Part shown: positions 24,918 through 33,501 of the stretch, in pieces
Position numbering within the stretch: position 1 is the first letter of the stretch
Layout of the letters: each line of letters begins with the position of its first letter
Source of the DNA: Verrucomicrobiota bacterium
GTDB taxonomy: Bacteria > Verrucomicrobiota > Verrucomicrobiia > Limisphaerales > UBA9464
Assembly (NCBI GenBank): GCA_016871615.1
Contig: VHCX01000037.1
Span: 1-33,501, forward strand
Length of the DNA: 33,501 nucleotides
Direction: 5' to 3'
Notes under the pieces: generated by a model
Database searches by the model: none
What the model saw: only the letters and a program-made list of their open reading frames with translations
Told to the model about the DNA's origin: nothing
Position numbers and translations under genes: made by a program

Positions 24918-26213
24918 TCAATGGCCGTCGCGGGAGGCCACCAGATACCCGTCGAACTCGTGCCGGACATGCGGCGGCACCCGGGCACGGAACCGGGCCT
25001 CCGGCCCGGAGTAGTCCTGCTCGACCACCTGCGCCACCGCGTGGAGGCGGCTCATGGCCTTCTGGTCGTGGTGCGGGATGCGGATCTCCACGAGGTCGCG
25101 GATGGGCTTGAGCATGGCCCCCAGCTCGGCGAAGAACGCCTCGAAGCCGAGCTTCCTGCGGGCCGAGACCGCCACGGCCTTGGGAAACTGCTGGCAGTGC
25201 ATGGCCGCCAGCTCGGCAGCGCCGGCCTTGTCGGTCTTGTTGAAGACCATGAGCGTGGGCTTCTCCTGGGCCCCGATCTCGGCCAGCACGGCGTTGACCG
25301 CATCCATCTGCTGCGGGGCATTGGGATGGCTCGAGTCCACCACATGGATCAGGAGGTCGGCCTCAACGACCTCCTCCAGGGTGGCCTTGAAGGCCTCGAC
25401 CAGCCCGTGCGGGAGCTTGCGGATGAAGCCGACGGTGTCGCTGAGCAGCACGTTCTGGTTGGAGGGCAGCCGCAGCCGGCGCGTGGTCGGGTCGAGCGTG
25501 GCGAAGAGCATGTCCTCGGCCATGACCTCGGCCCCCGTCAGGGCGTTGAGCAGGGTGGACTTGCCGGCGTTGGTGTAGCCCACGATCGAGGCCAGCGGCC
25601 ACTGGTGGCGCTGGCGGCCCTCGCGCTGGGTGGAACGCTGCCGCCGCACGATCGTCAGCTCGGAGCGGATCTTCTCGATGCGCTCCTGCGTCTTGCGGCG
25701 ATCGGCCTCGAGCTGCGATTCGCCCTCGCCGCCGATGGAGCCGGTCGATCCGCGCTGGCGGGAAAGATGCGTCCAGTAGCGGGTGAGCCGCGGCATGAGA
25801 TACTGGAGCTGGGCCAGCTCGACCTGGAGCTTGCCCTCCCGGGTGCGGGCGCGCTGGGCGAAGATGTCGAGGATGAGGCCGGTGCGGTCGATGACCTTCG
25901 CGCCGAAGAGGCGCTCGAGGTTGCGGGCCTGTGCGCCGGAAAGCTCGTCGTCGAAGAGGACCGTGTCGGCGCCGGCGTCCCGGGCGGCCTTGGCGAACTC
26001 CTCGGCCTTGCCCGCACCGATGAAGGTGCCCGGATTCGGGGCCTCGAGGCGCTGCACCCCCTGGCCGACGACCTCGACCCCGGCGGTGGTGGCCAGTTCG
26101 GCGAGTTCGTCGAGGGAGTCGGCCACGTCCCAGGAGGAGTGGCTCCGCAGCTCGACCCCCACCAGGAAGGCGCGCTCGGACTTTTTGTCCACGGTGTCGA
26201 TGAGGGCTTTCAC
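24918..26213 (-). CDS. hflX: Ribosome-associated GTPase HflX
   Basis: The 431-residue protein has the HflX N-terminal domain (NPGTFIGAGKAEEF, FDDELSGAQARNLE), and the glycine-rich helical linker GSTGSIGGEGESQLE. A GTPase domain follows with P-loop GYTNAGKST (about 212-220), the FATLDPTTR switch I, DTVGFIRKLPHGLVEAF (G3) and NKTDK (G4). A short C-terminal domain ends the protein. HflX splits stalled or hibernating 70S ribosomes. A GTG start at 26213 was chosen because the conserved region begins a few residues later. It diverges from glgA with a 156-base gap. Confidence 0.95.
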   Translation of the reverse strand: MKALIDTVDKKSERAFLVGVELRSHSSWDVADSLDELAELATTAGVEVVGQGVQRLEAPNPGTFIGAGKAEEFAKAARDAGADTVLFDDELSGAQARNLERLFGAKVIDRTGLILDIFAQRARTREGKLQVELAQLQYLMPRLTRYWTHLSRQRGSTGSIGGEGESQLEADRRKTQERIEKIRSELTIVRRQRSTQREGRQRHQWPLASIVGYTNAGKSTLLNALTGAEVMAEDMLFATLDPTTRRLRLPSNQNVLLSDTVGFIRKLPHGLVEAFKATLEEVVEADLLIHVVDSSHPNAPQQMDAVNAVLAEIGAQEKPTLMVFNKTDKAGAAELAAMHCQQFPKAVAVSARRKLGFEAFFAELGAMLKPIRDLVEIRIPHHDQKAMSRLHAVAQVVEQDYSGPEARFRARVPPHVRHEFDGYLVASRDGH

Positions 26214-26369
26214 GAGGGATGGGGCACGGTCAGGACACCCTAGCAACGAGACGCGCTTCGGGCCACCCCCGCGATGCGCCCGCGGGCGCCGGTTCCAGGG
26301 CGGATGCCCGGATCCGGGAAACGACTTCGGCCTTGTTCGCCCCCACCGGGTGCGCCAAAGACTCTGGCC

Positions 26370-27836
26370 ATGCACGTGCTGCTGGCGACCAGTGAGCTCA
26401 ATCCCTACTCCAAGACCGGGGGGCTGGCCGACATGGTGGCGGCGCTGGCCAAGGGGCTGGCCGGTCCGGCCGGACGGGGCGTCCTGCGGATCTCGGTGGT
26501 CTCGCCGCTGTACCGCGGCGTGCTCGGGTCCCACTCGGGCATCGAACCGACGCCATGGCGGCCGGCGATCCGGATCGGGGACTCGCTGGTCGAGGGCCGG
26601 TTCCACCGGAAGGCCCTCCGGCCGAACCTCACGCACTGGTTCGTGGAGCAACCCGGATTCTACGACCGGGCCGGCCTCTACGCCGAGGCCCAGCGGGACT
26701 ACGCGGACAACGCGGCCCGGTTCCTCTTCCTCAGCCGGGCGGCCCTCGTGCTGGCCCGGCACCTGCCCGACCCCCCCCGGGTCGTCCACGCCCACGACTG
26801 GCAGACGGGCCTGGTGCCGCTCCTGGCCCGGCATGAACAGCTGCAAGGCGGCTGGACCCAGCCGCCGCGCATGGTGTTCACCATCCACAACCTGGCCTTC
26901 CAGGGGTCGTTCCCGCTGTCGAGCTGGGACCTCACGGGCCTGCCCGCCGACTGGCTCCATATCGAGAGCGCCCGGCATCACGACCGGGTTAACTTCCTCA
27001 AGGCCGGACTGACCCAGGCGCAGGCGATCACGACGGTGAGCCCGACCTACGCCCGGGAGATCCTGACCGCCGAGCACGGCTGCGGGCTCGAGGGCCTGCT
27101 GCTCAAGCGCTACAATGACCTGGGCGGGATCCTCAACGGCGTGGACACCGAGGAGTGGAACCCCGCCACCGACCCCGACCTGCCGGCCCGCTTCCACGCC
27201 GGAGACCTCTCGGGCAAGGCGGTGTGCAAGGCGGCGGTGCAGCGCGAGATGGGCCTGCCGCAGGATACGGCCGTGCCGCTCCTGGCCAACATCTCGCGCC
27301 TGACCGACCAGAAGGGCTCGGAACTCATCGCGTCGACGGTGCGGGCGCTGCTCAAGGCGGGGGAGGTCTTCCAGTTCGTCCAATTGGGCAGCGGTGAGCG
27401 GGCGCTCGAGAACGCCTTCCGGGACCTTGCCCGACGCTTCCCCGACCGGGTCGCAGCGCGGATCGGCTTCCACGCCGCGCTCTCGCACCGCATCGAGGCC
27501 GGGGCCGACTTCTACCTCATGCCCTCGCGCTTCGAGCCCTGCGGGCTCAACCAGCTCTACTCGCTGCGCTACGGGGCGGTCCCGGTGGTCCGGGCGACCG
27601 GCGGCCTGCAGGATTCGGTGGTCGATCCGCGCGAGAACGCCGCGCTGGCCACGGGCATCAAGTTCACCCCGTACACGGAGGCCGCGTTGCGCCACGCCGT
27701 CCTCAAGGCGCTGGCGCTGTGGAAGGACCCGGCCTGGTTGGGACACCTGCGCCACAATGGCATGACGGCCGACTTCTCGTGGGACCGCCAGGCGGCGGAG
27801 TACGTGGCGCTCTACGAGTCGGTCTGCCGGGAATAG
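26370..27836 (+). CDS. glgA: Glycogen synthase (ADP-glucose starch/glycogen glucosyltransferase)
   Basis: The 488-residue GT5 enzyme starts with the ADP-glucose-binding loop KTGGLADM (residues 15-22). HAHDWQTGLVPLL and FTIHNLAFQG follow, then ILNGVDTEEWNP, LANISRLTDQKG, and the C-terminal catalytic loop SRFEPCGLNQLYSLRYGAVPVVR. It extends alpha-1,4-glucan chains in the cytosol. The length is normal. No other glycogen genes lie beside it. Its last 25 bases overlap the convergent FO synthase gene. Confidence 0.97.
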   Translation: MHVLLATSELNPYSKTGGLADMVAALAKGLAGPAGRGVLRISVVSPLYRGVLGSHSGIEPTPWRPAIRIGDSLVEGRFHRKALRPNLTHWFVEQPGFYDRAGLYAEAQRDYADNAARFLFLSRAALVLARHLPDPPRVVHAHDWQTGLVPLLARHEQLQGGWTQPPRMVFTIHNLAFQGSFPLSSWDLTGLPADWLHIESARHHDRVNFLKAGLTQAQAITTVSPTYAREILTAEHGCGLEGLLLKRYNDLGGILNGVDTEEWNPATDPDLPARFHAGDLSGKAVCKAAVQREMGLPQDTAVPLLANISRLTDQKGSELIASTVRALLKAGEVFQFVQLGSGERALENAFRDLARRFPDRVAARIGFHAALSHRIEAGADFYLMPSRFEPCGLNQLYSLRYGAVPVVRATGGLQDSVVDPRENAALATGIKFTPYTEAALRHAVLKALALWKDPAWLGHLRHNGMTADFSWDRQAAEYVALYESVCRE

Positions 27837-30187
27837 GCCGGTAGCCGGGCGGACTCCGGGCCGGCCGCCGCCGCCGGGGAGGGAACTCCGCCAAGTCCTT
27901 CGGATGTGCCACCGACCAGCCCTTCGACCCGACTCCCGACCGGCCCCTGACCATACAGCGTCGTCCGGCGGCGCGGCACCCGACCGACCGAACGGATGGC
28001 CACCTCGATCTCCGCCGGGGTGAGGCTTTCGCCGAAGGGTCCGCCGCTCTCTCGGGTGATGCTCTCCTCGTACAGGGTGCCGCCGAAATCGTTGCAACCG
28101 CTCCGGAGCATGGCGGCCGCACGCTCCGGACCCAGCTTCACCCAACTGGTCTGGAGGTTGGGGATCTCCCGGCCCAGGAACAGGCGGGCCAGGGGGTACA
28201 GGCGCTCCACCCGGGCTTCGGCCGCCTCGGCGATGGCCGCCGGCTCGATGCCCGCCTCCCGCGCCAGTTCACGACCCAGCCGATTGCGATGGGGCATGAA
28301 GGCCAGGGGCACGAACTCGGTGAACCCACCGGTGCGCCGCTGGAGATCGCGGAGACGGCCCAGGTGCCGGACCAGGTCTTCCCAGGTTTCGCGATGCCCG
28401 AAGAGGACGGTCGCCGTGGAGCGGAGCCCCACCCGGTGGGCCGTCTCGATGATGGACTCCCACTCGGCGGCCCGCAGCTTGTCGGGCGACAGGCGGTCCC
28501 GCATGGCGTCGTCGAGGATCTCGGCGGCCGTGCCCGGGACCGATCCGAGGCCGGCCTCCCGCAGCCGCTCGAGCACTGCGCTAGCCTCCAGCCCGCTCTT
28601 GCGGCACAGCGAGTGGATTTCCATCGGTGAGTAGGCATGGAGGTGGACGCCGGGCAAGGCACGCTTCAGGGCTCGGAGGAGTTCCTCGTAGTAGTCCAGG
28701 CCGAGGTCCGGGTGGATGCCGCCTTGCAGGCAGACCTCGCTGACCCAGGGCGTCTGGAGCACGCGCTCGACCACCGCGCCGACGCTGCGCGTGTAGGCCT
28801 CGGGGTGGCCCGGCGGCCGGTAGAATCCGCAGAAGGAGCAATTCGTGGTGCAGACGTTGGTGAAGTTGGCGTTGCGGTTGACCACGTAGGTCACCTCGTC
28901 GCCGTGGAGCCGGAGGTTCAGGATGTCGGCCGCCTCGCGAATTTCCTCCTGCGCCCCACCATCGGCCTCGGCCAATCGCAGCGCGTCGTCGACCGACAGC
29001 GGCTCCTCGCGCAGGGCCTGGGACAACAGGTCGACCGGGCCGCGAGGGCGATGGGGCCGGGTGGAGCGCCCAGCGGACACCACCGGGAGAGGCTCCGGCG
29101 ATGAGACCTCCCGCACGGCCTTCCGGGAACCCGCACGTCGGTCTTCCACGCACCCCTCGGGCGTCCCGTCCGAGCCGGACCGCGATGGGCGATCGTCGGG
29201 TGAGCCGGCCCGAGCCTCCAACCCACGCTGACGGATCACCTCGGCGACGCGGGCCGAGATCCAGCCCTTCTCGATGAAGGGGTCGTACACCGGCCACCTG
29301 TGGCGCAATTCGAGGCCGTGGCGGCGGCAGGCCTCGGCATAGTGGGCGGGCGGAGCCCAGGGGTGGAGGGGATTGACCCAATCGCCGTCGGTGCTGATGC
29401 CACCCAGGTCGTCGATCCACGGCAGCAGCGCCTCCCAGTGCGGATGGATGTTGGGCGGAATCTGCACGGCCACCCCGGGCGCAACCCGGCGCCAGTGCTC
29501 GATGAGCTCGCGGTAGTCCTCGAGGGTCGGCGGCGGCGGCACCGGACGCAATCGGGACCCGTCATTGGGGATGAAGTTCTGGAGGATGATCTCCTGCAGG
29601 TGCCCGTGGCGTGCGTGGAGTTCGGCCAGGGCGTCGAGCGACCGGAACCGCGACGCCCGCGACTCGCCCAGGCCGATGAGGAGGCCGCTGGTGTAGGGCA
29701 CCCGCGCGCGGCCGGCGGCCTCGAGCGTGCGCAGGCGGCCCTTGGCCGATTTCTGTGGGGCGACCGTTCGGTTGAAGGCCTCGTCGATGTTCTCGAGCAT
29801 GAGGCCCATGGAGGCGTTGACCTCAGCCAACCGCTCGAAGTCGCCCTCCGACATGGCCCCGAGGTTGGTGTGCGGCAGGAGCCCCACCTCCAGCGCCCGT
29901 TCGCAGGCGTTGCGCACCAGCTCCACGAACCCGCCGAAGCCGCGCCCGGCGATCTCGGCCCGCAGGTGCGACAGCGAGTCCGACGCCTCGCCCGCCAGGA
30001 ACAGGATCTCGGTGGCCCCGCCCGCCCGGGCCTGGGCCAGGAGTGCTTCGATGCGCGCCTCGGGCATCAACCCCTCCCGATCCCGCCGGTACCCGCAGTA
30101 GGCGCAATCCCACGGACAATCCCGCGTGAGCGGAATCGTCAGCGACGGCGAAAAGGTCACAGCCCTCCGGATGTTCAAGACCCGCAC
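27812..30187 (-). CDS. fbiC: Bifunctional FO synthase, CofG-CofH fusion (FbiC type)
   Basis: The 791-residue protein contains two radical-SAM modules. The N-terminal one (about 10-330) has the iron-sulfur motif C24-x3-C28-x2-C31 and CofG features such as HTNLGAMSEGDFERL and ILQNFIPNDGSRL. The C-terminal one (about 390-740) has C446-x3-C450-x2-C453 and CofH features (CLQGGIHPDLGLDYYEELL, HAYSPMEI, SGCNDFGGTLYEESI). Together they join 5-amino-6-ribitylaminouracil and tyrosine into 7,8-didemethyl-8-hydroxy-5-deazariboflavin (FO), the deazaflavin of F420 and of some photolyases. The fused order is that of actinobacterial FbiC. The modules are joined by a Ser/Arg/Gly-rich linker, and the last 45 or so residues are low complexity. 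The start is GTG at 30187. The gene overlaps glgA tail to tail by 25 bases. Confidence 0.93.
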   Translation of the reverse strand: MRVLNIRRAVTFSPSLTIPLTRDCPWDCAYCGYRRDREGLMPEARIEALLAQARAGGATEILFLAGEASDSLSHLRAEIAGRGFGGFVELVRNACERALEVGLLPHTNLGAMSEGDFERLAEVNASMGLMLENIDEAFNRTVAPQKSAKGRLRTLEAAGRARVPYTSGLLIGLGESRASRFRSLDALAELHARHGHLQEIILQNFIPNDGSRLRPVPPPPTLEDYRELIEHWRRVAPGVAVQIPPNIHPHWEALLPWIDDLGGISTDGDWVNPLHPWAPPAHYAEACRRHGLELRHRWPVYDPFIEKGWISARVAEVIRQRGLEARAGSPDDRPSRSGSDGTPEGCVEDRRAGSRKAVREVSSPEPLPVVSAGRSTRPHRPRGPVDLLSQALREEPLSVDDALRLAEADGGAQEEIREAADILNLRLHGDEVTYVVNRNANFTNVCTTNCSFCGFYRPPGHPEAYTRSVGAVVERVLQTPWVSEVCLQGGIHPDLGLDYYEELLRALKRALPGVHLHAYSPMEIHSLCRKSGLEASAVLERLREAGLGSVPGTAAEILDDAMRDRLSPDKLRAAEWESIIETAHRVGLRSTATVLFGHRETWEDLVRHLGRLRDLQRRTGGFTEFVPLAFMPHRNRLGRELAREAGIEPAAIAEAAEARVERLYPLARLFLGREIPNLQTSWVKLGPERAAAMLRSGCNDFGGTLYEESITRESGGPFGESLTPAEIEVAIRSVGRVPRRRTTLYGQGPVGSRVEGLVGGTSEGLGGVPSPAAAAGPESARLPAYSRQTDS

Positions 30188-30630
30188 GCTACCCTGCAGT
30201 TCCCCTCATGCAATCTCCAAAGGGGTCGGTCCTCACTATTGACACAAACCGGCATTCGCCGAGGTGTTCCTCCGGATTTTCTGAGGCAACGAGGTGCATG
30301 GTGGCGCTCCGCGGGATCGATCCTGCGTCCGCAGGGAAGCTCGGGAAGACTCGGCCATGGCGCTTTGCGCCGGAAGTCAGGGTGTCCGCTTCCAGAGCGG
30401 GCTCCGGACCGATCCCGCCACGGTGGGATTTGGCCGGTTGCCGAGGCGACAGGGCTGGCGCTTGGGATGAGGCCTCGTTGAGGTTGCTTCGCGACACTCC
30501 GGTCCGTGACCATCACCAGGCTCATCATGTCGGCCGGTGGGAGGTCCCGCCTCGCAACCCCAATCACGGAACCACAACCACGACACGTCCGCAGGTTAGG
30601 TGTAACTTTGAGCTTCGGAAACCCCATGGA
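30188..30630. other. Intergenic region between divergent FO synthase and kinase genes
   Basis: No protein-like frame is seen on either strand. A TTGACA at 30239-30244 reading rightward has no matching -10 at 17 bases. The region should hold promoters for both divergent genes but none was identified with confidence. Confidence 0.45.
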
Positions 30631-30637
30631 GGAGGTG
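30631..30637 (+). promoter_or_regulatory. Shine-Dalgarno sequence that sets the kinase start
   Basis: GGAGGTG is a full anti-16S match, rare in this window. Two in-frame ATGs follow. The one at 30639 is only one base away, too close to use, while the one at 30645 has a seven-base spacing. The start at 30645 is therefore preferred. Confidence 0.7.
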
Positions 30638-30644
30638 AATGAAC

Positions 30645-32414
30645 ATGGAATCCCCGCCAGCCGCTTCATCGGATCCCTCATCGGCGCCCGCGTCGCGGAA
30701 TTGTCCGCGATGCCATTCCCCCATTCCCGAGCGGGCCCCGGGCGGCCTGTGCCCGCGCTGCCTCCTCGATGGCGCCAGCGCGCCGACCGACGCCGGACTC
30801 GGACCGCAGGCCTCGAGGACTCCAACGCTGGCCGAGATCGCGTCGGCCTTCCCGGACCTGGAGGTGCTCGGCCACCTTGGTTCGGGCGGGATGGGCTGCG
30901 TGTATCGGGTGCGGGAACGGGATTCGGGCAGGATCTCGGCCCTCAAGGTGCTGCCCCGGGAATTGGCCGCCGATCCGGCCTTCGTGGAACGCTTCGAGCG
31001 CGAGGCCCGCACGCTCGCGCGGGTGCGGCATCCCCACATCGTGGGCGTTCATGGGTTCGGGCAGGCCGGTGGGTTCTGCTTCCTGCTGATGGAGTTCGTG
31101 GACGGGGCCAACCTCCGCCAGGCGCTGCGATCGGGGCGCTTCACCCCGCATCAGGCGCTGGCGCTCATCCCGCCCCTGTGCGAGGCGTTGCAGGCCGCCC
31201 ACGCGCAGGGAGTGCTGCATCGGGACATCAAGCCGGAGAACTTGCTGCTCGACGCCGAGGGCCGGGTGAAGATCGCCGATTTCGGCATCGCGAAGCTGCT
31301 TGAGGACCCGGCCACGCCGTCGACCGGAGCCTACACGCTCACCCGCACCGGGGCCCGGGTCGGGACACCGCATTACATGGCCCCGGAGCAGGTGGAGACA
31401 CCCGAGCAGGTGGACCACCGGGCCGACATCTACTCGCTGGGGGTGGTCTTCTACGAGCTGCTCACCGGGGAGCTTCCCCTCGGCCGCTTCCCAGCCCCCT
31501 CGATCAAGGCCGGCCTCGATGCCCGCGTGGACGACATCGTCTTCCGGGCGCTGGCCAAGGAACGGGAGCTACGCCAGCAATCCGCCGATCAGGTGAAGGC
31601 GGAGGTCGAAGGGTTGGGTGGAACCGAACACGAGCAGCGGAACAAACCGTCGAAGCGAGTCCCGGTCTGGAGCCGCTTCGGCCCATGGACGAGATCCCGG
31701 GTTGTCGGGGCGGTCGCGGTCGCGCTCCTCGCGACATGGGCTCTACTGACCGTCACCGTCCGTTTCCTTCAGCAAAACAGGGCCCGCGCGAACCGGATCG
31801 CCGGAATCAACCGGCTCAAAACTCTCGGGATGGCCCTGAGGATCGCGGAGGTGGACGGAGTACCGGTGACAAACGATCGAGTCGCGTTTCCGGCAACAAC
31901 AACTAACCCCAAGAACGACAAATCCTTCTTGATCTTCCCATCTGGGGAGACGAACCCGGCGCCCGACGAGATGCTCGCCGTCTCTCCCCCGGATCCGAAC
32001 ACGAACGATCGATTAGTCCAAAATTATGACGGATCGGTCGAACAGCTGTCCGAAGCGCAATTCCGTGACCGCTTGAGCAGGGCCAGCCCGTCGATCCAGG
32101 CGGCTTGGGAGCGGTCGCAGATTCCGGAGTTCTCGCATCCGGATCTGGTGACGGATCCACGAACCGGGAAACCCTTCCTGATCTTTGCAACTAGGGCTAC
32201 GAACCCGGCCCCCGACGAGATGCTGGTGGTGTCTCCCCCAGATCCGCACACGAACCATCGATTGGTATTGCTTGGGGACGGATCGGTCCAGCCGCTGTCT
32301 GAAGCGAAATTCCAGGACCGCCTGAGCCGAGCCCACCCGTCGGTCCAGGCGGCTTGGGAACGGTTGCACCGAAGACCCGCCAATCCGTCGCCCCATCGAA
32401 GCACGACCCCATGA
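30645..32414 (+). CDS. Transmembrane Ser/Thr protein kinase with zinc ribbon and duplicated ectodomain
   Basis: The 589-residue protein begins with a zinc-ribbon-like segment (NCPRC...GLCPRCLLDG, about residues 18-45). A full Hanks-type kinase domain follows: GHLGSGGMGCVY loop, ATP lysine K101, HRDIKPENLLL (H192-D194), DFG at D212 and MAPEQ. A single membrane helix lies at about residues 353-374. Directly after it comes RANRIAGINRLKTLGMALRI, which resembles the start of verrucomicrobial pseudopilin heads. Two near-identical 66-residue repeats (427-492 and 510-575) follow, each with NPAPDEML, VSPPDP, DGSV and QAAWER. The kinase would face the cytosol and the repeats the periplasm. Its stop overlaps the start of the sigma-factor gene (ATGA), suggesting it signals to that factor. 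The ligand and target are unknown. Confidence 0.9.
   Translation: MESPPAASSDPSSAPASRNCPRCHSPIPERAPGGLCPRCLLDGASAPTDAGLGPQASRTPTLAEIASAFPDLEVLGHLGSGGMGCVYRVRERDSGRISALKVLPRELAADPAFVERFEREARTLARVRHPHIVGVHGFGQAGGFCFLLMEFVDGANLRQALRSGRFTPHQALALIPPLCEALQAAHAQGVLHRDIKPENLLLDAEGRVKIADFGIAKLLEDPATPSTGAYTLTRTGARVGTPHYMAPEQVETPEQVDHRADIYSLGVVFYELLTGELPLGRFPAPSIKAGLDARVDDIVFRALAKERELRQQSADQVKAEVEGLGGTEHEQRNKPSKRVPVWSRFGPWTRSRVVGAVAVALLATWALLTVTVRFLQQNRARANRIAGINRLKTLGMALRIAEVDGVPVTNDRVAFPATTTNPKNDKSFLIFPSGETNPAPDEMLAVSPPDPNTNDRLVQNYDGSVEQLSEAQFRDRLSRASPSIQAAWERSQIPEFSHPDLVTDPRTGKPFLIFATRATNPAPDEMLVVSPPDPHTNHRLVLLGDGSVQPLSEAKFQDRLSRAHPSVQAAWERLHRRPANPSPHRSTTP
31923..32369 (+). repeat. In-gene duplication in the kinase ectodomain (249-bp period)
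   Basis: Bases 31923-32120 and 32172-32369 (66 codons each) encode closely matching segments. Shared strings include FLIF, TNPAPDEML, VSPPDP.TN.RLV, DGSV, LSEA.F.DRLSRA.PS.QAAWER. The nucleotide match is also high, with the same codons in long runs, which suggests a fairly recent duplication or gene conversion. Confidence 0.9.
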
Positions 32415-33130
32415 CCGACTCTCGATCGCCCATCGCCGGCTTCGCCCCCACGCGCTGGTCGCTGGTGGCGCGAGCGCGGGGCACGACGGCGGAAGCCCGG
32501 ACGGCCTTGTCGGAACTGTGCGAGGCCTACTGGCGACCGGTGTTCGAGACGCTCCGGCGGTGGCATGGCACCGACGACGAGGCGCGCGAGTCGGCCCAGG
32601 AATTCTTCGCCCATGTGCTGGCCGGCGGCCGCCTTGCGGGGGCCGACCCGGCCCGCGGACGATTCCGCTCCTACTTGCTGGGCGCGCTCCGGCATTTCGA
32701 ATCGGACCTGCGTGAGCGGGCCTGCCGACTCAAGCGCGGCGGCGGCGTCGCAATCGCGTCGCTCTCCGAGGACGAAATCGCCGAGCCGGCCAGCCCAAGC
32801 CTCGACCCGATCCGCTTCGACCGGGAGTGGGCTTTCACGGTGGTCGATCGGGCCCTGATGGCGGTGGAGACCGACCTCCGGATGGCAGGCCGGTCGGCCC
32901 ACTTCGAGCGCCTGAAACCCGCGCTGGTCGGAGACGATCTTCCGTCGCCCTCGGACCTCGCCCGGGAACTCGGGCTCACCGAAGGCGCGCTGAAGGTGGC
33001 CATCCACCGCCTGAGGCGACGATTCCGGGAGGCGGTGCGGGCCGAGATCGGCCAGACCCTGTCCGAGGGCGACGATGTGCAGGAGGAGCTGCGCTACCTC
33101 ATCGAGGTGTTGGCTTCAACGGGAGGCTGA
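32411..33130 (+). CDS. ECF-like RNA polymerase sigma factor paired with the kinase
   Basis: The 239-residue protein opens with FAPTRWSLVARA, a start common in planctomycete and verrucomicrobial sigma-24-like proteins. It has a region-2-like segment (LSELCEAYWRPVFETLRRW...DEARESAQEFFAHVL) and a longer linker than usual. A region-4 helix-turn-helix (SDLARELGLTEGALKVAIHRLRRRF) follows, then a short C-terminal tail ending EELRYLIEVLAS. Such factors redirect RNA polymerase to a small regulon. The ATG lies inside the kinase stop (ATGA), so both proteins are likely made together. No anti-sigma gene is present, which fits kinase-controlled ECF factors. It converges with the photolyase gene, 37 bases away. 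Confidence 0.85.
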   Translation: MTDSRSPIAGFAPTRWSLVARARGTTAEARTALSELCEAYWRPVFETLRRWHGTDDEARESAQEFFAHVLAGGRLAGADPARGRFRSYLLGALRHFESDLRERACRLKRGGGVAIASLSEDEIAEPASPSLDPIRFDREWAFTVVDRALMAVETDLRMAGRSAHFERLKPALVGDDLPSPSDLARELGLTEGALKVAIHRLRRRFREAVRAEIGQTLSEGDDVQEELRYLIEVLASTGG

Positions 33131-33167
33131 ATCGAAACGAACTACTTCCGGGCCCATCCAAAGGGGT

Positions 33168-33501
33168 CTATTCGAAAAGTTCCTGCTGCACCGGACCGGG
33201 TTCCGGCTCGGGTCCGGGATCCGACGAGCCCCTCAACAGGCCCTCGCGGTACCGGGCCTCGGCGTCGGCACCCCGGAAGGTGTGGCCCTTGCGGCTGCCA
33301 TGGCGCACATACACCCGGCGCGACGCCTCACGGGCGGCTCCGCTGGACCGCACGCGGGCGATGCGCTCCTTGGCCTCCAACACCGCCCGACGCGGATCGA
33401 CCCTCGGGGCCGGATAGTCGACGCCGATCACGCACCCGGCGGCCTCCTGCTGCGAGCGGGTCATGCGCCACGGCTCGGCCAGGAAGGCGTCGGGCACGCC
33501 G
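33168..33501 (-). CDS. DNA photolyase/cryptochrome family protein, C-terminal fragment
   Basis: Only the last 110 or so codons are inside the window; the frame is open through the right edge. The fragment [30 protein letters not shown] is the hallmark C-terminal end of the FAD domain of class I-type photolyases and bacterial cryptochromes. It is followed by a helix and a RHGSRKG segment as in many bacterial members, and then a Pro/Glu-rich tail ending QQELFE. These enzymes use FADH- and blue light to repair cyclobutane dimers in DNA, or to signal. The antenna site lies outside the window. The stop is TAG at 33168-33170. An FO synthase gene 3 kb away suggests a deazaflavin antenna. Confidence 0.85.

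Follow-up and report, generated by a model that had tools for sequence, protein, structure and literature searches.

We identified, in a 33,501-base stretch of a Verrucomicrobiota genome (this whole stretch is called the window below), an intact gene in which CofG and CofH are fused into one protein, a probable FO synthase. We consider it likely that this gene makes FO, that no F420 is made, and that FO is the antenna of a photolyase, most likely the class I CPD photolyase encoded on another contig (C26) of the same genome. By homology (PMC8498797), the CofH half would start and the CofG half would finish the ring of FO (8-HDF). Instead of being converted to F420, FO would be bound as a light-harvesting antenna, most likely in the N-terminal pocket of the C26 enzyme, from which the energy of absorbed blue light would go to FAD and drive DNA repair. 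In the sister lineages, genus g7 and a second, subdivision-6-like group of Verrucomicrobiota, a further acceptor would probably be an iron-sulphur (FeS) photolyase with a SePhrB-like loop. The enzyme activity, the binding of the chromophore and the energy transfer are what we infer from sequence; FO as an antenna is established in cyanobacteria and algae (PMC8498797 and PMC9178010).

The probable FO synthase gene and its surroundings

The features of the locus are listed in Table 1. The CofG half scores 293.5 bits on its model (cut-off 213.35) over residues 11-318 of the open reading frame, and the CofH half 414.6 bits (cut-off 374.1; 395.5 bits in a second search) over residues 398-746, the latter scoring lower on MqnC (351.9) and MqnE (281.5), in both cases below the cut-offs of those models. 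Each half has one CX3CX2C motif, the pattern of radical-SAM enzymes. On the bifunctional CofGH model NF006687 the protein reaches 586.7 bits, below the full-length equivalog cut-off of 1018.

Table 1. Features of the window around the fused gene
Feature	Position	Strand	Basis
CofG-CofH fusion (FbiC architecture), putative FO synthase	27812..30187	-	791 aa ORF; profile matches and trees of the halves
CofG half	29234..30157	-	TIGR03550 match; CX3CX2C motif CPWDCAYC
CofH half	27950..28996	-	TIGR03551 match above cut-off; CX3CX2C motif CTTNCSFC
Ser/Thr protein kinase between FbiC and photolyase	30639..32414	+	PF00069
ECF-like sigma factor, overlapping the end of the kinase frame	32354..33130	+	TIGR02937, 28.4 bits, under cut-off 42.9
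Divergent photolyase/cryptochrome 'type B', last 110 residues	33168..33500	-	PF03441, 26.6 bits, just below cut-off 27
Glycogen/starch synthase (GlgA), FbiC neighbour	26274..27836	+	Profile match
HflX-type GTPase, FbiC neighbourhood	24918..26294	-	Profile match

The earlier note had described a fused CofG-CofH gene near a photolyase, with a kinase/sigma pair between them; these genes were correctly seen, and the gap from FbiC to the photolyase is 2,980 bases. The contig (C37) is 33,501 bases long and stops inside the type B photolyase, so the window holds only the 110 C-terminal residues of that protein, and its antenna domain lies outside the window. Another contig of the genome, C101, ends with the initial residues of such a photolyase, and another photolyase-like gene, F, lies before it; approximately 400 type B residues fall beyond the ends of C37 and C101. 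In a relative (genome G011, locus L049, on the same contig as L165) the order F, type B photolyase, sigma, kinase, FbiC, GlgA and HflX is found on one contig, with an intact type B gene at L049:3332-5032. GlgA and HflX adjoin FbiC in 12 of 19 family loci (L033-L051). FbiC and the neighbouring photolyase are not an operon, because two genes on the opposite strand stand between them. In genome G015 (L046:4564-5656), a fragment of F is followed by the end of the sigma gene joined to the start of the kinase beside FbiC, a pattern suggestive of an internal deletion or of faulty assembly.

Search for the F420 pathway

We looked for CofD (TIGR01819) in 42 genomes. These were 22 CofG-bearing genomes of the window's family (its own and 21 others, three of the 22 carrying a lone CofG that falls slightly short of the cut-off), 11 family genomes without CofG, five subdivision-6-like genomes, one planctomycete, and three other CofGH-bearing bacteria, from Anaerolineae, Polyangiaceae and Proteobacteria, which are the F420-type controls. 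Matches were found in three of the 42, exactly the three controls; none was detected in the window's own genome, which is 95.6% complete, or in any of the 22 CofG-bearing family genomes. The PF01996 search for CofE gave matches in three of 31 genomes, the same three controls, and none in the own genome or in the 22 CofG-bearing family genomes (0/22). For CofC (PF01983), four of 30 genomes had matches above the cut-off, namely two of the three controls and, as short partial matches, G014 and G038; there was no match in the own genome. This last search is insensitive and counts for little alone, because it missed one of the controls (G152). Among the family genomes covered by the CofE and CofC searches, 14 have a completeness of 90% or more and a contamination of 5% or less. 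FO would stay unconverted, as the enzymes turning it into F420 were not found, and the genome probably makes FO without F420. The earlier note had named cofC, cofD and cofE as the genes to look for; none of them was detected in the own genome, in support of FO without F420.

The class I photolyase and its putative antenna pocket

The own genome has at least four photolyase-family genes: a class I CPD photolyase (C26, L001), type B (divided between the window and C101), F (C101) and an FeS photolyase of the prokaryotic 6-4 type (C87). A PF00875 search of this genome detected the C26 gene plus only the stub on C101. The C26 gene is not linked to the FbiC contig. The best PDB sequence match of its product is the Anacystis photolyase 1owl (390.1 bits, versus 326.3 for the E. 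coli enzyme 1dnp), and its best NCBIfam model is the 8-HDF-type TIGR03556, on which its 462.5 bits remain under the cut-off of 884.6. Arg51, Ile41 and Leu55 are named in the 8-HDF pocket of the Synechococcus class I enzyme SePhrA (PMC9178010), and the C26 photolyase retains all three. In SePhrA the 8-HDF band lies at 439 nm (same paper). The earlier idea of FO as a photolyase antenna is thus supported through the pocket residues of C26, and the part of it that made the neighbouring photolyase the user is not.

Class I residues were read in 45 proteins, 43 from the family and two subdivision-6-like; two short fragments (G148 contig C32 and G008 contig C27) are left out of the count, and the letters are less sure for G023 and G028, whose genes are broken or cut. 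The strict pocket (Arg51, Ile or Leu at 41, Leu55) is present in 18 of 18 family class I proteins where the genome has both CofG and CofH, a category that includes genes cut by contig ends (e.g. G003, G014), and in six of 25 from family genomes without a complete FO synthase. Among same-order genomes without FO synthase, where 22 of 26 loci matched the reference, it is found in two of 22 class I proteins, and 17 of the 22 are without Arg51. Both subdivision-6-like proteins have it (2/2), these genomes having been chosen for CofGH, hence no test.

Eight FO-less genomes retain the strict pocket, and with Phe41 allowed, as in the Xenopus enzyme, the figure is 13 of 47. The family exceptions G010, G013, G039, G042 and G049 are 66 to 88% complete, and a sixth, G043, is 89% complete. 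The contig of G010 stops inside the kinase, exactly where FbiC would be expected, so that the absence of FbiC there may be an assembly gap. A clearer exception is G083, which is 93% complete and has the strict pocket without FO synthase.

Three genomes of genus g7 (G048, G044 and G036; loci L183, L184 and L185) carry a lone CofG of 321-379 aa and no CofH above the cut-off; their CofH-like matches, at 304 to 321 bits, are at a level also present in FO-less genomes. This lone CofG forms its own branch in the CofG tree. Position 55 of the class I photolyase is Ala or Phe in two of these genomes, and the third is without a PF00875 photolyase.

In plain numbers pocket and synthase are strongly associated, but part of this is due to kinship, and coevolution is unproven. 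An independent-pairs test was run on a tree whose only input was the FAD domains, to keep the pocket from shaping it (G045, G009 and G049 were too short and left out). It gave four pairs on supported branches and six on all branches, too few for a usable result and mostly without a difference (median p = 1). Fisher tests of pocket versus synthase (p from 4e-4 to 7e-8) are uncorrected and treat kin as independent, and they are not used as evidence.

The iron-sulphur photolyases

The FeS photolyase family was detected in 40 of 64 genomes, and 38 sequences from 37 genomes were scored, leaving out the G018 and G161 fragments and the second G156 copy. They fall into two kinds, one with Arg39, Tyr45 and Lys49, near the SePhrB pattern, versus one with Glu39. 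The Tyr45/Lys49 kind occurs in four family genomes, all four with FO synthase, and in the nine subdivision-6-like genomes read, which were picked for CofGH; a near case, with the loop HRRH, is G042 (70% complete, FO synthase not found). The Glu39 kind is represented by 12 sequences from FO-synthase genomes, all of genus g1, and by 12 from genomes without it. The FeS photolyase of G020, which reads HVWT by eye, falls outside the pattern. The pockets of the lone-CofG genomes and this split among the FeS photolyases point the same way as the pocket count.

The own FeS photolyase (L208, contig C87) has the loop HVWN with Glu39 and Arg49 and departs from R/Q-R-P/R-Y, the D loop of an FeS 6-4 photolyase of the 8-HDF type. 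The similar H-V-W-S loop may take a tricyclic cofactor, and its salt bridge speaks against 8-HDF (PMC9178010). Because it is of the Glu39 kind, the own FeS photolyase is less likely to be an FO user; it was ranked low on mixed evidence, this kind being found with and without FO synthase.

Distribution and origin of the fused gene

Of 145 relatives, 19 have CofG above the cut-off, and all 19 belong to the window's family; 95 genomes from other families of the order gave no such match. A scan of the phylum gave four of 288 genomes with a CofG match at E <= 1e-50, the own genome included; the other three (G323, G444 and G458) have a CofG of quite another type, at 462-473 bits, which may belong to a true F420 pathway. 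CofG of the window type was found in one family and in the subdivision-6-like group, which fits the under-noticed distribution that the earlier note had offered as one explanation.

In the CofG tree and in the CofH tree, a single clade (SH-aLRT 100 in each) unites the family's fused halves with the split genes found in the subdivision-6-like group. Cyanobacterial sequences form a separate clade in both, and the actinobacterial ones (two in the CofG tree, one of them fused; four in the CofH tree, three of them fused) lie among other bacteria. The trees come from short searches, were rooted by us on the sequences of other bacteria and have flagged long branches, three asgard sequences of the CofH tree landing on the opposite side of the root; we draw no conclusion on the deep branching. 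Most simply, neighbouring cofG and cofH genes would have merged within Verrucomicrobiota, the splitting of an older fused gene being a possible alternative. A recent import from Actinobacteria, the other explanation given before, is not supported, since each half groups with split cofG or cofH genes of other Verrucomicrobiota. Several public metagenome-assembled genomes named Akkermansia muciniphila, Blastochloris or Paceibacterota (L036, L039, L065, L057 and L063) have CofG and/or CofH inside the verrucomicrobial clades, and their names or bins may be wrong.

Alternative explanations

The neighbouring type B photolyase and the upstream protein F might themselves use FO, as parts of a functional gene cluster, which we regard as unlikely. 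The antenna pocket of the neighbouring photolyase had been put forward as a check, and it gave no clear support to this enzyme as the user: at the place of Arg51, 19 of the 20 type B proteins read (19 genomes) have His and one has Gln, their low identity to the reference making the alignment less certain (the window copy is without the position-51 region). The type B fold model (mean pLDDT 79.5, fair to good) agrees better with such a use, as it matches many photolyases, some of them solved with F0; class III, 6-4, cryptochrome and class I structures matched about equally. In G011 a single contig carries all of F, type B, sigma, kinase and FbiC, which also speaks for a cluster, but genes on the opposite strand separate FbiC from type B, and sigma adjoins type B in five of 20 loci (several stretches or contigs stop too soon to tell). 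G012 has FbiC with the kinase and sigma, and type B with F on another contig with neither kinase nor sigma in the 6.5 kb around them, while G008, G010, G013 and G039 have type B and no FO synthase was found in them. From this patchy linkage, the closeness of FbiC to a photolyase is weak evidence for function. F precedes type B by no more than 500 bases in 14 of 20 loci, some stretches ending too early. Protein F (L227:7390-8709 on C101; L049:2022-3332) begins with part of a photolyase FAD domain and ends with an alpha/beta domain, an order opposite to that of ordinary photolyases. Foldseek lists photolyases and universal stress proteins for it, which would suit a photolyase-related function, but at E-values of 0.039 or worse and probably via the C-terminal domain. 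With a weak model (mean pLDDT 54.3) and nothing at E <= 0.001, F was rejected as a candidate FO user.

The other explanations concern the fate of FO and the source of the gene. A role of FO as a free redox or signalling deazaflavin, or as a diffusible product for nearby algae or cyanobacteria, is very unlikely: FO readily crosses membranes (PMC8498797), and the lone-CofG genome G048 (92% complete) has no PF00875 or PF04244 match, but the photolyase pocket accompanies FO synthase in the counts, and G048, also lacking CofH above the cut-off, may for that reason make no FO. There is a slim chance that FO is a step to F420 or to a related redox cofactor through unrecognised enzymes or a partner organism. 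Poor detection of CofC by its profile, as in control G152, leaves some room for this; against it, CofD and CofE were undetected in all 22 CofG-bearing family genomes and present in all three controls. Acquisition of the fused gene from Actinobacteria by transfer is extremely improbable. Its domain order is that of the actinobacterial FbiC, and a spread of the actinobacterial fusion to other bacteria has been described (PMC8498797), but the fully supported verrucomicrobial clade holds split cofG/cofH pairs, with the two and four actinobacterial sequences elsewhere, and the score on the bifunctional CofGH model is little more than half the cut-off.

Comparison with known systems and significance

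As in Synechococcus elongatus, which has CofG and CofH with SePhrA and SePhrB (PMC9178010), a probable FO synthase occurs here with a class I CPD photolyase that has Arg51, Ile41 and Leu55. In the sister lineages an FeS photolyase has Tyr45 and Lys49, as SePhrB does (same source). Unlike in the cyanobacterial system, CofG and CofH are fused here, in another phylum and on a separate branch of both trees, and the FeS photolyase of this genome has the HVWN loop. With the FbiC of Actinobacteria and Proteobacteria, which belongs to the F420 pathway, the gene shares the CofG-CofH order and architecture; it differs in that no CofC, CofD or CofE was detected in its genome, in its clade, and in falling far under the CofGH cut-off. 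The nearest relatives of both halves are the split cofG-cofH pairs of the subdivision-6-like Verrucomicrobiota (L055-L073, L090), in which cofG and cofH are two adjacent genes, unlike the fusion in the window; in the five genomes of that group that were searched, CofD and CofE were undetected, as here. Protein F resembles the reverse-order Phr4/5, Phr6 and Phr7 of marine picocyanobacteria, which have the FAD domain first and another domain last, and its layout, upstream of type B, resembles that of Phr4/5-Phr6 in marine Synechococcus (PMC9426592). Phr4 and Phr6 have four cysteines for an Fe-S cluster (same paper), and no invariant set of four is seen in the alignment of F.

The use of FO as an antenna is of a kind already known, and the verrucomicrobial holder and the separate fusion were not seen in print among the matches listed. 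In the open-licence PMC literature no paper on FO synthase in Verrucomicrobia was among the matches listed; PMC8498797 has no word beginning 'Verrucomicrob', and the main text of PMC5673642, a study of freshwater verrucomicrobial genomes, has a single mention of photolyases and none of F420 or deazaflavin.

In a wider reading, Verrucomicrobiota would be another phylum besides Cyanobacteria that makes FO for light harvesting only, with its own CofG-CofH fusion and with FO fed to two photolyase classes, and loss of the synthase would lead to decay of the pocket, synthase and pocket evolving together; we hold the case for and against this to be evenly balanced. The source bacteria are close kin of lake and pond Verrucomicrobia. 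If the reading is true, FO-dependent photorepair would extend to bacteria known mainly from lake and pond metagenomes, the FbiC architecture would have a second origin, and finding a CofG-CofH fusion should then not count as a sign of F420. Because some of the related genomes in the family have the synthase and others lack it, the family allows a direct test of whether the antenna pocket depends on a supply of FO.
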